The position numbers and the translations under genes are program-made. This document shows positions 7,443-12,526 of a stretch of 64,000 bases of DNA, piece after piece. Below the pieces are notes generated by a model, which was given only the letters and a program-made list of their open reading frames with translations, did no database searches and had not been told where the DNA came from. The stretch comes from Ectothiorhodospira haloalkaliphila ATCC 51935. GTDB lineage: Bacteria > Pseudomonadota > Gammaproteobacteria > Ectothiorhodospirales > Ectothiorhodospiraceae. Position 1 is the stretch's first letter; every line of letters starts with the position of its first letter. The stretch is from positions 619,844-683,843 of the forward strand of contig NZ_KK214998.1 in NCBI RefSeq assembly GCF_000633935.1, written 5' to 3'.

Positions 7443-7628
7443 GTGGGACTCCCTTGGTGGTGTGTGCCCCTGGTGTCCATGGAAGGCCGCGCCGGGGCTT
7501 TATAGTATGTTGTGCAGCCAAACTATCAGACCCTGGAAATCCGTATCCCAAAAGATATCGATACCCACATGATGGGTGTGGATGGCCAACCGTTTCCGCC
7601 GCCCCTCATCGTTCCCCAGGAGACCGCG

Positions 7629-9314
7629 ATGTCCCGTTCCACTCGATCCCTCGTCCTTCTGATCTGCCTGGCCTGTGCCGGGCCGCTGCTGGCGGATGCG
7701 CCGCCCCATGGGGTGGCCACGCCCCATCCCCTGGCCACCGAGGTGGCCCTGGAGGTGCTGTCCCGGGGCGGTAATGCGTTCGATGCTGCCGTGGCCGTGG
7801 GTGCGGCGCTGGCGGTGGTGGAGCCCTATGGGTCCGGTCTGGGCGGGGGTGGTTTCTGGCTATTGCATGAGGCCGCCACCGGGCGTCAGGTCATGGTGGA
7901 TGCCCGGGAGCGGGCGCCGTTGGCCGCCGATGCAGACATGTTTCTGGATGATGAAGGCGAGGTGGATAGGGATCGGGTAATGAATGGCCCCCTGGCAGCC
8001 GCCATTCCCGGCACGCCCGCCGCCCTGGATCATATCGTCCGGGAATATGGGGCGCTGCCTCTGACAACGTTGCTGGAGCCGGCCATCCGTCTGGCCCGGG
8101 AAGGGTTCCCGGTGGACCCGGTCTATGAGCGGTTGACCTCCTTCCGGCGCGACACCTTGCGAGCGTGGCCGGCGTCGGCAGCGGTCTTTCTGGATGATGG
8201 CGAGGTGCCGGAAGAGGGCTTCGTGATCCATCAGCCGGACCTGGCCCTCACCCTGGAGCGACTGGCGGATTCGGGGCGTGATGGGTTCTACCGGGGGCCC
8301 GTGGCCGAGCGGCTCGTCGAGGCCGTGAGCGAGGCCGGGGGGATCTGGACCCAGGAGGATCTGGCAAGCTATCAGGTGGTGGAGCGCGAGCCGATCAGCT
8401 TCGATTACCGGGGCATGCGGGTGGTGTCGGCGCCGCCGCCGTCCTCGGGTGGCATCGCCCTGGCCCAGGCCATGCAAATGATGGAACGCTTCGATCTTGA
8501 GGCCATGGACGAGGCGGATCGGTTGCATCACGGGGTGGAGGCGATGCGCCTGGCCTATCACGACCGGGCCCGGTATCTGGGGGATGTCGACTTTGTGCAG
8601 GTGCCGGTGGAGCGTCTCATCGATCCGCGCTACGCGGCCGGGCTGGCCGCCACGGTGCACCCGGGCCGGGTCCGGCCCAGCGAGCAGTTGCCGGGGCCGG
8701 CGGGCCTGCGGGGTGGGGAGGATACCACCCATTTCTCCATCATTGATGCGCAGGGCAACCGGGTGTCGGCCACTCTGTCGCTGAACTATCCCTTTGGCTC
8801 AGGGTTCATGCCTGCCGGGACGGGGGTGGTCCTGAACAATCACATGGATGATTTCACGGCCGCACCGGGTACACCCAATGCCTATGGCCTGATCCAGTCG
8901 TCGGCCAATCGCATCGAGCCGGGCAAGCGCATGCTGTCGAGCATGTCGCCCACCTTTCTGGAGATGGATGATCGGGTGGCTGCGCTGGGTACGCCGGGCG
9001 GCAGTCGGATCATCACCATGGTGCTGTTGTCGGCCCTGGATTTTCATGCCGGTGGTGGTGCCGATCGCCTGGTGTCGTCGCCCCGTCATCACCATCAGTA
9101 CCTGCCGGACTACATCGAATATGAACCGGATGCCTTCAGTGATGAGCTCAAGGCGCAACTGGAAGCGTATGGGCATGTACTGGAGGCCCGGTCTCGACCC
9201 TGGGGCAATCTGCAGGCGGTGGTTGTGGAGACGGATGGCCGTTTCGAGGCGGCGGCAGATCCCCGGGGTGTGGGCACCCACTCAGCAACAGGCCTCCTCC
9301 ACCCAGGTGAGTAG
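7629..9314 (+). CDS. ggt: secreted gamma-glutamyltransferase
   Basis: From the ATG at 7629 the protein has 561 residues and begins with a signal peptide (SLVLLICLACAGPLLADA). An upstream ATG at 7512 would bury that signal, and a CAGGAG ribosome site precedes 7629, so I chose the latter. The catalytic threonine is T366 in DTTHFS. SGLGGGGFW, APPPSSGGIALAQ and a C-terminal GTPGGSRIITM glycine loop are present. Periplasmic enzymes of this type hydrolyse or transpeptidate glutathione and other gamma-glutamyl compounds. The 3' end overlaps the convergent cowN by 33 bp. It is a clear but diverged paralogue of the gene at 4436. Confidence 0.92.
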   Translation: MSRSTRSLVLLICLACAGPLLADAPPHGVATPHPLATEVALEVLSRGGNAFDAAVAVGAALAVVEPYGSGLGGGGFWLLHEAATGRQVMVDARERAPLAADADMFLDDEGEVDRDRVMNGPLAAAIPGTPAALDHIVREYGALPLTTLLEPAIRLAREGFPVDPVYERLTSFRRDTLRAWPASAAVFLDDGEVPEEGFVIHQPDLALTLERLADSGRDGFYRGPVAERLVEAVSEAGGIWTQEDLASYQVVEREPISFDYRGMRVVSAPPPSSGGIALAQAMQMMERFDLEAMDEADRLHHGVEAMRLAYHDRARYLGDVDFVQVPVERLIDPRYAAGLAATVHPGRVRPSEQLPGPAGLRGGEDTTHFSIIDAQGNRVSATLSLNYPFGSGFMPAGTGVVLNNHMDDFTAAPGTPNAYGLIQSSANRIEPGKRMLSSMSPTFLEMDDRVAALGTPGGSRIITMVLLSALDFHAGGGADRLVSSPRHHHQYLPDYIEYEPDAFSDELKAQLEAYGHVLEARSRPWGNLQAVVVETDGRFEAAADPRGVGTHSATGLLHPGE

Positions 9315-9584
9315 GGCCTGGGCATCGTCGTCGCCACACTCCTCGAACAGTTCGCGGATCTGATTGATGTTGGCGTGGATCAGGAACAGGTCGTCGGGCT
9401 TGGGGCCGGATTTGGGATTGCGCTTGCCCAGGAAGTAGTCCCAGAAGGGGGATTTCTGGTCGGGGTCGGCGGTGTATTCCTCGATCAGGTTCATGACCAG
9501 TTTGGCGTTGCCGTCACAGTCCAGGTCCTTGAAGCTGATGTAGCGGGCGTTGGCGGCGTCGGGATGGAGATTGGGGCGGGTCAC
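9282..9584 (-). CDS. cowN: N2-fixation sustaining protein CowN
   Basis: The 100-residue protein matches CowN: RYISFKDLDCDGNAKLVMN, then NPKSGPKPDDLFLIHANIN, and QIRELFEECGDDDAQALL ending EEACC. CowN lets molybdenum nitrogenase keep working in the presence of carbon monoxide. I take the GTG at 9584 as start, with AAGGAG seven bases before it. A longer frame to 9626 is excluded because it would begin inside the sigma-54 promoter. Upstream lie a -24/-12 element, an IHF-like site and a NifA site (separate entries), so expression should follow the nitrogenase regulon. No nif structural genes are in the window. The family assignment is from recognised sequence and supported independently by the promoter. 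Confidence 0.9.
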   Translation of the reverse strand: MTRPNLHPDAANARYISFKDLDCDGNAKLVMNLIEEYTADPDQKSPFWDYFLGKRNPKSGPKPDDLFLIHANINQIRELFEECGDDDAQALLTWVEEACC

Positions 9585-9621
9585 GAAGGGGCTCCTTGAG
9601 TCGGTGTTGTGCCGAATCTTT

Positions 9622-9637
9622 AGCAAGGAGCGGGCCA
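9622..9637 (-). promoter_or_regulatory. sigma-54 (-24/-12) promoter of cowN
   Basis: On the complementary strand the bases read TGGCCCGCTCCTTGCT. The invariant GG and GC are separated by exactly ten bases, close to the consensus TGGCAC-N5-TTGC. Transcription would begin around 9611, leaving a leader of about 26 bases before the GTG at 9584. Confidence 0.88.
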
Positions 9638-9652
9638 GGAGGCCGTGGTTTT

Positions 9653-9665
9653 CAAGTGCTTGTTT
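9653..9665 (-). promoter_or_regulatory. IHF-like site between NifA site and promoter
   Basis: The complement reads AAACAAGCACTTG, one mismatch from WATCAA-N4-TTR. It is preceded by a long A tract (9663-9669 on the other strand), as in many IHF sites. Its place between the activator site and the -24 element is where DNA bending is needed at nif promoters. Confidence 0.55.
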
Positions 9666-9709
9666 TTTTATTGGATATTTTTAAGGGTAGGGGGTGGGTT
9701 GCTGAGGAT

Positions 9710-9725
9710 TGTGGGAAAGCTGACA
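9710..9725. promoter_or_regulatory. NifA upstream activating sequence
   Basis: The bases TGTGGGAAAGCTGACA form a perfect TGT-N10-ACA motif. Its centre is about 106 bp upstream of the predicted cowN start point, within the usual range for NifA binding. Confidence 0.8.
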
Positions 9726-9729
9726 AGGA

Positions 9730-9753
9730 GGGGAGGGCGCTCGGACCCTCCCC
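9730..9753 (-). terminator. hairpin downstream of valS
   Basis: GGGGAGGG (9730-9737) and CCCTCCCC (9746-9753) form a stable hairpin beginning 11 bases after the valS stop. The T tract that should follow is weak, so termination strength is uncertain. Confidence 0.5.
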
Positions 9754-9763
9754 CTCATACACC

Positions 9764-12526
9764 TCACAACCGCCGGATCTTCTCCAGTTGCCCTTCCAGC
9801 TCCCGCAGGCTGGCACTCATCTCCGCCACCCGGGTGCGTTCCTTCTCCACCACCTCGGCGGGGGCCCGGTCCACGAAGCTGGGGTTTTCCAGTCGACCCC
9901 GGCACTGGGTGAGGTTCTTCTGCACCTTGGCCACTTCCTTTTCAAGTCGGGCGATCTCCGCCTCCTTGTCGATCAGGCCGGCCAGGGGGATGAGCAGGTG
10001 CATCTCACCTACCAGAGCCATGGCCGACTCCGGGGGCTCCTCGCCGTGCAGCCATTGCACCGACTCGGGCTTGCCCAGGAATTCGATGAAGGCGCGGCTG
10101 GACTGGAAGCGGGTCTGATCCTCCGGTTGCCAGTTGTGCAGCAGCACGGGCAGGGGCTTGCCGGGGCTGATGTCCATTTCGGCGCGGATGCGGCGCATGC
10201 CCAGGATGAAATTCTTCACCCATTCGATCTCCTTGTCTGCCTGGGCGTCCCGTGCGCTCTCGTCCACCTGAGGATAGGGCTGGTGCATGATGGTCGCGCC
10301 CTCGCGACCGGCCAGGGGGGCCACCTGGCGCCAGATGGCCTCGGTGATGAAGGGCATGATGGGGTGCATCAGCCGCAGCAGGGTCTCCAGTACCTGGACC
10401 AGGGTCTGGCGGGTGCCGCGGCGGGCGGCCTCGCTGCTGTCCTCGCCGGTGAGCACCGGCTTGCACAGCTCCAGATACCAGTCGCAGTAGTCGTGCCAGG
10501 TGAATTCATACAGGGCACGGGCGGCCAGGTCGAAACGGTATTCACCCAGTTGGCGATGCACCTCGGCAATGGTGACCTGCAGGCGGGAGGTGATCCAGCG
10601 GTCGGCCAGGGAGAGCTCCACCTCGCCGCCGTTCACGCCGGTGTCCTGCCCCTCGGTGTTCATGAGCACATAGCGGGCCGCGTTCCACAGCTTGTTGCAG
10701 AAGTTGCGGTAGCCCTCGATGCGGCCCAGGTCGAACTTGATGTCCCGACCGCTGGAGGCCAGGGCTGCCAGGGTGAAGCGCAGGGCGTCGGTGCCGAAGG
10801 CGGGGATGCCATCGGGGAACTGCTTCTTCGTGGCCTTGGCGATGCGCTTTTCCATCTGCGGCTGCATCAGGCCCTGGGTGCGCTTGGCCAGCAGGTCATC
10901 CAGGGTGATGCCGTCGATCAGGTCGATGGGGTCGAGCACGTTGCCCTTGGACTTGGACATCTTCTGGCCCTCGGCGTCCCGGATCAGGCCGGTGACATAC
11001 ACCTCCCGGAAGGGCACATCGTCCATGAACTTCAGGCCCATCATGATCATGCGAGCCACCCAGAAGAAGATGATGTCAAAGCCGGTCACCAGCACCGAGG
11101 TGGGGTAGAAGGTCTTGAGCTCGGGGGTCTTTTCCGGCCAGCCCAGGGTGGAGAAGGGCCACAGGGCCGAGCTGAACCAGGTGTCCAGCACGTCGGGATC
11201 GCGGGTGAGAGTCACATCCGAGCCCAGACCGTACTTGCTGCGGGCCTCTTCCTCGCTGCGGGCCACGTAGATGTTGCCGGCATCGTCGTACCAGGCGGGG
11301 ATGCGATGGCCCCACCAGATCTGCCGGGAGATGCACCAGTCCTCGATGTTGCGCATCCATTCGAAGTAGGTCTTGTTCCAGTTTTCCGGCACGAAGCGGA
11401 TGCGGCCATCCTCCACCGCCTGGATGGCCGGCTCGGCCAGCGGGCCCGCCTTCACGTACCACTGGTCGGTGAGGAAGGGTTCGATGACGGCGCCGCTGCG
11501 ATCGCCCCGGGGCACCATCAGCTTGTGGTCATCGATGCGCTCCATCAGGCCCTGGGCGTCCAGATCCTGGATCACCCGCTCACGGGCCTCGAAGCGGTCC
11601 AGGCCCCGATAGGCCTCGGGGGCCTCGTCGTTGATCTTCGCGTCGATGGTGAAGATGTTGATCATGGGCAGGTCGTGCCGGGTGCCCACGGCATAGTCAT
11701 TGAAGTCGTGGGCGGGGGTGATCTTCACGCAGCCAGAGCCGAATTCCGGGTCCACGTAGTCATCGGCGATCACCGGGATGCGCCGGCCGGTGAGCGGCAG
11801 TTCCACTTCCTTGCCGATCAGGTGCCGGTAGCGCTCGTCCTCCGGGTTAACCGCCACGGCGGTGTCGCCCAGCATGGTCTCGGGTCGGGTGGTGGCCACC
11901 ACCAGATGGCCCGAGCCGTCGGCCAGGGGGTAGCGCATGTGCCAGAGCTTGCCCTGTTCTTCCTCCGAGAGCACTTCCAGGTCGGAGACGGCGGTGTGCA
12001 GGACCGGGTCCCAGTTCACCAGGCGCTTGCCCCGGTAGATCAGGCCCTCGTCGAACAGTTGCACGAAGACTTCCGTCACCGCCTCGGAGAGGCCGTCGTC
12101 CATGGTGAAGCGTTCCCGGCTCCAGTCGATGGAGGTGCCCAGGCGACGCATCTGCTGCTGGATCTGGTGGCCGGAGTGCTCGCGCCACTGCCACACCTTG
12201 TCCAGGAAGGCGTCGCGGCCCAGGTCGTGACGGGACTGCCCCTCCCGGGCCAGTTGCCGTTCCACCACCATCTGGGTGGCGATGCCGGCGTGGTCGGTGC
12301 CGCCCTGCCACAGGGTGTTGTCGCCGCACATCCGGTGGTAGCGGATGAGGGTGTCCATCAGGGTGTCCTGGAAAGCGTGCCCCATGTGCAGGGTGCCGGT
12401 CACGTTGGGTGGCGGCAGCATGATGCAGTAGGGGTCCCCCTCGCCACTGGCGGCGAACCAGCCATGGGTTTCCCATTCCTGGTAGACGGTTTGTTCGATG
12501 GCGCGGGGGTCGTAGGTCTTTTCCAT
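9764..12526 (-). CDS. valS: valyl-tRNA synthetase
   Basis: The 920-residue class Ia synthetase charges tRNA-Val with valine and edits threonine. The HIGH-type motif is HMGH at 47-50 and KMSKSKGN starts at residue 522. The editing (CP1) domain lies between them, with [15 protein letters not shown]. An anticodon-binding domain and a C-terminal arginine/glutamate-rich coiled coil (about 845-920) complete the family architecture. Length is normal. It is the last gene of the pepA-holC-valS run, a conserved gammaproteobacterial order, with 63 bp to holC. Confidence 0.98.

Follow-up and report, generated by a model that had tools for sequence, protein, structure and literature searches.

Proteins of the CowN family are known from Rubrivivax, Rhodospirillum rubrum, and Rhodobacter capsulatus. 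In R. capsulatus, NifA reportedly acts on cooA, and CooA on cowN. PMC4257681 reports that CowN protects nitrogenase from carbon monoxide (CO) in R. rubrum, and that cowN adjoins rcoM in R. rubrum and cooA in Rubrivivax. For Gluconacetobacter diazotrophicus, PMC8047169 describes a cowN gene with a TGT-N10-ACA UAS and NifA dependence, whose expression rises 30-fold under diazotrophic conditions and further with CO. There, cooA adjoins cowN and the CooA and NifA sites overlap upstream; the reason for CowN production in nitrogen-fixing cells without added CO is raised as an open point in the same source.

Here we analyzed a 64-kb stretch of DNA (the window) from Ectothiorhodospira, a purple sulfur bacterium, that encodes a member of the CowN family. 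As in G. diazotrophicus, its cowN gene is preceded by a TGT-N10-ACA UAS. In that species cooA is present and a CooA site lies over the UAS, whereas CooA was not found here and 72 bases, a nif-like distance, separate the UAS from a -24/-12 element downstream; RcoM, encoded beside cowN in R. rubrum, was likewise not found in the window genome. The order of UAS, IHF-like site, and -24/-12 element is that of nifH-type NifA-IHF-sigma-54 promoters, which drive nif operons, whereas the promoter in the window would drive a single accessory gene next to valS. Promoters of this type are textbook, and both CowN and the NifA dependence of G. diazotrophicus cowN are already known (PMC8047169). What our sequence comparison adds is a predicted direct NifA/sigma-54 promoter in all nine cowN-bearing Ectothiorhodospira genomes, with the usual CO sensor not found. 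A literature search, which covered subscription papers thinly and so leaves unpublished status unproven, found nothing on cowN in Ectothiorhodospira.

A nifH-type promoter arrangement upstream of cowN

The cowN gene occupies positions 9282-9584 on the minus strand, with 100 codons from a GTG at 9584 followed by a stop. Its product was assigned to the CowN family by PF20543 (E = 1e-35; 122.6 bits against a cut-off of 27) and scores 121 bits with NF033689 (cut-off 48); E. marina has the nearest CowN among named relatives, at 96% identity. Upstream on the same strand, 179 bases before the GTG, the list of open reading frames (ORFs) places valS (9764-12526). Sequence resembling valS also lies 5' of cowN in all nine congeners that carry cowN, and two E. 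mobilis strains have extra DNA between the two genes, or a second, weaker valS match. At the other end, a gamma-glutamyltransferase-like ORF (7512-9314, plus strand; named by eye) converges on cowN with a 33-base tail-to-tail overlap (9282-9314), and a match to it downstream of cowN was found only in G000 and G009 among the nine loci searched.

The elements upstream of cowN all read on the minus strand, which is its coding strand. The NifA-type UAS (TGTCAGCTTTCCCACA, 9710-9725) fits TGT-N10-ACA as well as the stricter TGT-N4-T-N5-ACA. An IHF-like site (AAACAAGCACTTG, 9653-9665), one mismatch from the IHF consensus WATCARNNNNTTR, overlaps a run of seven A at 9663-9669, and a sigma-54 -24/-12 element (TGGCCCGCTCCTTGCT, 9622-9637) contains GG-N10-GC. 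The first-pass annotation had read these same three elements here, and their positions agree with it base for base. Sigma-54 promoter geometry puts the predicted +1 at 9611, 12 bases past the -12 C. By eye, 13 of the 16 positions of the UAS agree with those of a nifH UAS bound in vitro by a NifA DNA-binding domain (PMC10590331).

The ORF list gives cowN as 114 amino acids from a TTG at 9626, which lies within the -12 element and therefore cannot be on a transcript starting at 9611. The GTG at 9584, already favored as the start in the first-pass annotation, has a Shine-Dalgarno-like AAGGAG (9592-9597, minus strand; called from sequence) seven bases 5' of it, and five of the six columns of this site are invariant across nine Ectothiorhodospira genomes. 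E. magna (G002) has an ATG where the window has the GTG, which further supports this start.

A strong G+C-rich hairpin at 9729-9754, whose minimum-energy fold has 10 pairs, stops four bases short of the UAS. The segment 9720-9765 folds at -22.1 kcal/mol (z = -2.0). The hairpin lacks a T-run, and terminator prediction did not pick it up; it may still attenuate read-through from valS.

The arrangement is conserved in Ectothiorhodospira and recurs at nif genes

We shuffled the 250 bases 5' of the cowN GTG 20,000 times, preserving dinucleotide composition. TGT-N10-ACA alone appeared in 1.6% of the shuffles and the exact -24/-12 pattern in 0.01%; no shuffle had a UAS followed by a -24/-12 element with 40-130 bases between them. 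The -24/-12 pattern is unremarkable by itself, with one match in the window against 0.42 expected, so we rejected the box alone as promoter evidence and rely on how the elements combine and are conserved. Across the whole genome, a similar -24/-12 pattern gave 14 matches, and its reversed control gave 4.

UAS, IHF-like site, and -24/-12 element precede cowN in 9/9 Ectothiorhodospira genomes that have the gene, in line with the first-pass annotation. All nine UASs fit TGT-N4-T-N5-ACA, the gap from UAS to -24 is 71-73 bases in eight genomes and 64 in one, and a predicted IHF-like site with one mismatch ends 14-16 bases before -24 in every genome. Mean column identity in the nine-genome alignment is 0.88 for the UAS, 0.80 for the IHF-like site, and 0.91 for the -24/-12 element, with the spacers below the motifs at 0.65, 0.67, and 0.73.

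These data bear on the possibility that the match is fortuitous and that cowN is read through from valS or transcribed from a sigma-70 promoter. The proximity of valS on the same strand would allow read-through, as would the lack of any intrinsic terminator called at 9200-9850. Both the shuffles and the nine-genome conservation speak against a fortuitous match, a sigma-70 promoter scan of 9200-9850 gave no match, and E. mobilis DSM 4180 keeps the promoter despite ~1.3 kb between valS and cowN. We consider a fortuitous match extremely improbable.

A genome search found nifHDK, nifA, and rpoN all present, in keeping with the earlier view of this organism as a nitrogen fixer. The genes nifH, nifD, nifK, nifX, nifE, and nifN lie together on contig C3, and nifL, nifA, and nifB on contig C4 near 817-821 kb, all over NCBIfam cut-offs; rpoN is on contig C2, and ihfA and ihfB are on contigs C1 and C3. 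cowN does stand far from any nif cluster: nifHDKENX is on another contig, and ~188 kb of the shared contig separate cowN from the nifL promoter. Of 47 genomes in the order, 10 carry cowN, and the set with nifD over cut-off is identical. One congener without nifD over cut-off (G006) also has no cowN, and genome G010 (81% complete) has NifA over cut-off, a nifD-like match below cut-off, and no cowN. In the phylum sample, cowN was found in 5 of 398 genomes, the window genome included.

In the window genome, nifH is preceded by TGTCGTTATCCATACA, AAACAGTGATTTA, and TGGCACGTGCCTTGCA in the same element order as at cowN, and nifE is preceded by a like arrangement of the three element types. Six of the eight listed nifE promoters in the genus have an IHF-like site with one mismatch, and those of G004 and G005 have none with fewer than four mismatches.

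The promoter elements, their conservation in nine genomes, and the presence of nif genes, nifA, and rpoN support the assignment of cowN to the NifA regulon that the first-pass annotation had proposed. We think it very probable that cowN is a single-gene member of this regulon, with a UAS, an IHF bend, and a sigma-54 start near 9611. NifA, held back by NifL, would bind the UAS at 9725-9710, and IHF would bend the DNA at about 9665-9653, which would let UAS-bound NifA touch the sigma-54 RNA polymerase waiting at 9637-9622. Transcription of cowN would then begin near 9611, so that CowN would be made together with nitrogenase. Factor binding, promoter activation, the transcript 5' end, and when cowN is expressed are all inferred from the DNA sequence. 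Weighing on the other side are the single mismatch in every IHF-like site at cowN, the poor IHF matches at the nifE promoters of G004 and G005, the one-base difference between the UAS and a CooA-type site, the cowN of the nifD-bearing relative Thiorhodospira sibirica, which lacks such a promoter in its 400 upstream bases, and the compound-pattern rows at TauE genes (three) or at genes with no known tie to nif (three).

cowN loci outside the genus

We compared 44 cowN loci, seven from Ectothiorhodospira and 37 from elsewhere (33 records and four phylum-sample genomes). Flanks were up to 4 kb, less at contig ends and 1.5 kb for the four phylum-sample genomes, and with flanks this unequal, cooA could still lie elsewhere in the compared genomes. 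The named outside loci are beta- or gammaproteobacterial or come from MAGs named Proteobacteria, so that alphaproteobacteria are covered mainly via papers. A UAS with a -24/-12 element (at most two mismatches) was found in 7/7 Ectothiorhodospira loci versus 2/37 others; the two are Marinospirillum, with one mismatch and a gap of 84, and Billgrantia, with two mismatches and a gap of 142. No UAS accompanies the -24/-12-like element that Nitrincola and G431 carry no more than 90 bases from the CowN match. A sigma-54-like sequence 5' of Tolumonas cowN was left uncounted, as by eye it sits in an inverted repeat.

The CowN tree, built from 35 rows of short proteins and with 14 of its 32 inner branches open, groups Billgrantia, Marinospirillum, and Nitrincola (96/92). 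As the tree does not join the Billgrantia group to Ectothiorhodospira, we rejected the idea that NifA/sigma-54 wiring of cowN marks one clade, and one origin is not shown. In Thiorhodospira sibirica (L110), which belongs to the same family and has nifD, the 400 bases 5' of cowN contain neither a NifA/sigma-54 nor a CooA-type promoter, and the locus has no CooA-like gene.

CooA-like genes were found in 0/7 Ectothiorhodospira loci versus 16/37 others, 15 of them within ~230 bases upstream of the CowN match and one ~1.3 kb upstream; CooA identity was checked in the PDB for the gene of locus L125, and the other CooA-like genes are matches to it. A CooA-type site with at most one mismatch occurs in 7/7 Ectothiorhodospira loci (always with one mismatch) and in 12/37 others. 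Loci L104, L106, L116, and L123 have perfect CooA-type palindromes (e.g. TGTCGGCCAGCCGACA) 103-113 bases before the CowN match. Because such palindromes fit TGT-N10-ACA as well, NifA and CooA sites cannot be distinguished by searching for that motif alone; one dyad geometry can serve two unrelated activators, NifA and CooA. We also searched the window, allowing up to three mismatches, for a dispersed CCCCTCTCCC...GCGGGAGAGGGG element that stands 5' of cowN in relatives, and found no match.

Search for a CO sensor

Using PF13545, PDB kinship, and a CooA query, we found no CooA in the window genome. PF13545, which detects a real CooA used as positive control at 60.8 bits, has seven matches there, two of which are other proteins by sequence. 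The remaining five are CRP/FNR-type proteins: two over the FNR cut-off, one over the CRP cut-off, one DNR-like, and one FNR-like. The DNR-like protein matches DNR best in the PDB (E = 2.1e-41), with CooA far down the list (E = 2.4e-9), and the FNR-like protein most resembles FNR-type regulators, its 52 listed PDB matches including no CooA. For the positive control, encoded by the gene adjoining cowN in L125, the top PDB matches are CooA (E = 3.7e-40). Used as a query, the L125 CooA reached 33.9 bits in the window genome, at one of the two FNR genes, and at best 41.7 bits (28% identity) across ten Ectothiorhodospira genomes. NCBIfam was rejected as a CooA test: it returned no CooA-named model for the positive control or for six other CooA-like or CRP-like neighbors of cowN, and the test therefore rests on PDB kinship, PF13545, and the CooA query.

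The sole LytTR protein found in the window genome is a response regulator with receiver and LytTR domains, and the LytTR-type heme sensor that RcoM control of cowN would call for was thus not found. CooA control was rejected, with cooA not found and the CooA-type site TGTCR-N6-YGACA not fully matched: the UAS carries one mismatch to it, in the right half, in all seven named Ectothiorhodospira loci. Some other, unfamiliar CO sensor in Ectothiorhodospira is possible.

This near-match raises the question of a dual site, at which NifA and a CO-responsive CRP/FNR-type protein would share the 16-base dyad and cowN would still respond to CO, as has been proposed for G. diazotrophicus. CooA and NifA sites do overlap upstream of G. 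diazotrophicus cowN (PMC8047169), and the DNR-like and FNR-like proteins of the window genome have no assigned ligand. Against this, the five CRP/FNR-type matches to PF13545 include no CooA, and the right-half G of the CooA site is absent from 9/9 UASs. By eye, the nifE UASs of the genus match the CooA consensus at least as well as the cowN UAS does, so nothing about the resemblance is peculiar to cowN. We regard a dual site as unlikely.

We favor direct NifA control, probably free of a CO sensor, as a lineage-specific wiring of a known gene. Because neither CooA nor RcoM was found, we infer, with less confidence than for the promoter, that CO is unneeded as an inducer of cowN in Ectothiorhodospira. 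The fuller proposal, that cowN has been uncoupled from CO sensing, with the dyad that serves CooA elsewhere acting as a NifA UAS ahead of a sigma-54 core and CowN made pre-emptively with nitrogenase, falls just short of an even call in our judgment. If it is true, CowN would serve as a constant accessory of nitrogenase, either countering CO that arises within the cell or playing a part unrelated to CO. Its complete nif-type cowN promoter, with no CO sensor found, makes Ectothiorhodospira a natural system in which to ask whether CowN does more than respond to external CO, a question open to direct test should nitrogen fixation alone induce the protein.

Other matches to the compound promoter pattern

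We searched ten Ectothiorhodospira genomes with a compound pattern (TGT-N4-T-N5-ACA, gap, TGGYNYGNNNNTTGCW) and obtained 27 rows, against 0 for the reversed control. Twenty-one rows precede nifE (8), cowN (7), a NifB-like gene (4, from two promoters), or nifL (2), and the remainder stand before a TauE/SafE permease gene (3) or genes without a known nif link (3). Rows L076 and L084 are the same promoters as L067 and L077, and L081 and L068 were assigned to cowN by position. Family scans confirmed nifE and nifL of G000 and the TauE gene of G001 with its neighbor; we named by eye the remaining nifE rows, the TauE rows in G003 and G007, and the NifB-like gene in G004 and G005. The cowN promoters of G003 and G004 escape the pattern through one mismatch in the -24 part. 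The window genome contributes four rows: those of nifE, cowN, and nifL, and a fourth whose UAS is, by eye, a CRP-type palindrome.

These rows also bear on which activator would act at cowN. The nifA model has 16 matches in the window genome, which shows that further sigma-54 activators exist, and NtrC or an NtrC-like protein, for example, could drive cowN in place of NifA. The conserved cowN UAS is of the TGT-N10-ACA type and common to nifE, which argues for NifA; control by another activator appears highly unlikely.

The TauE/SafE permease gene in G001 (L064, 607-1443 and 2-607), G003 (L082), and G007 (L078) is preceded by a UAS and a -24/-12 element, without a good IHF-like site. It is possibly an unrecognized sigma-54 target tied to metal or sulfur supply. 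In G001, the gene that follows it carries DUF4213/DUF364 (putative heavy-metal chelation) domains.
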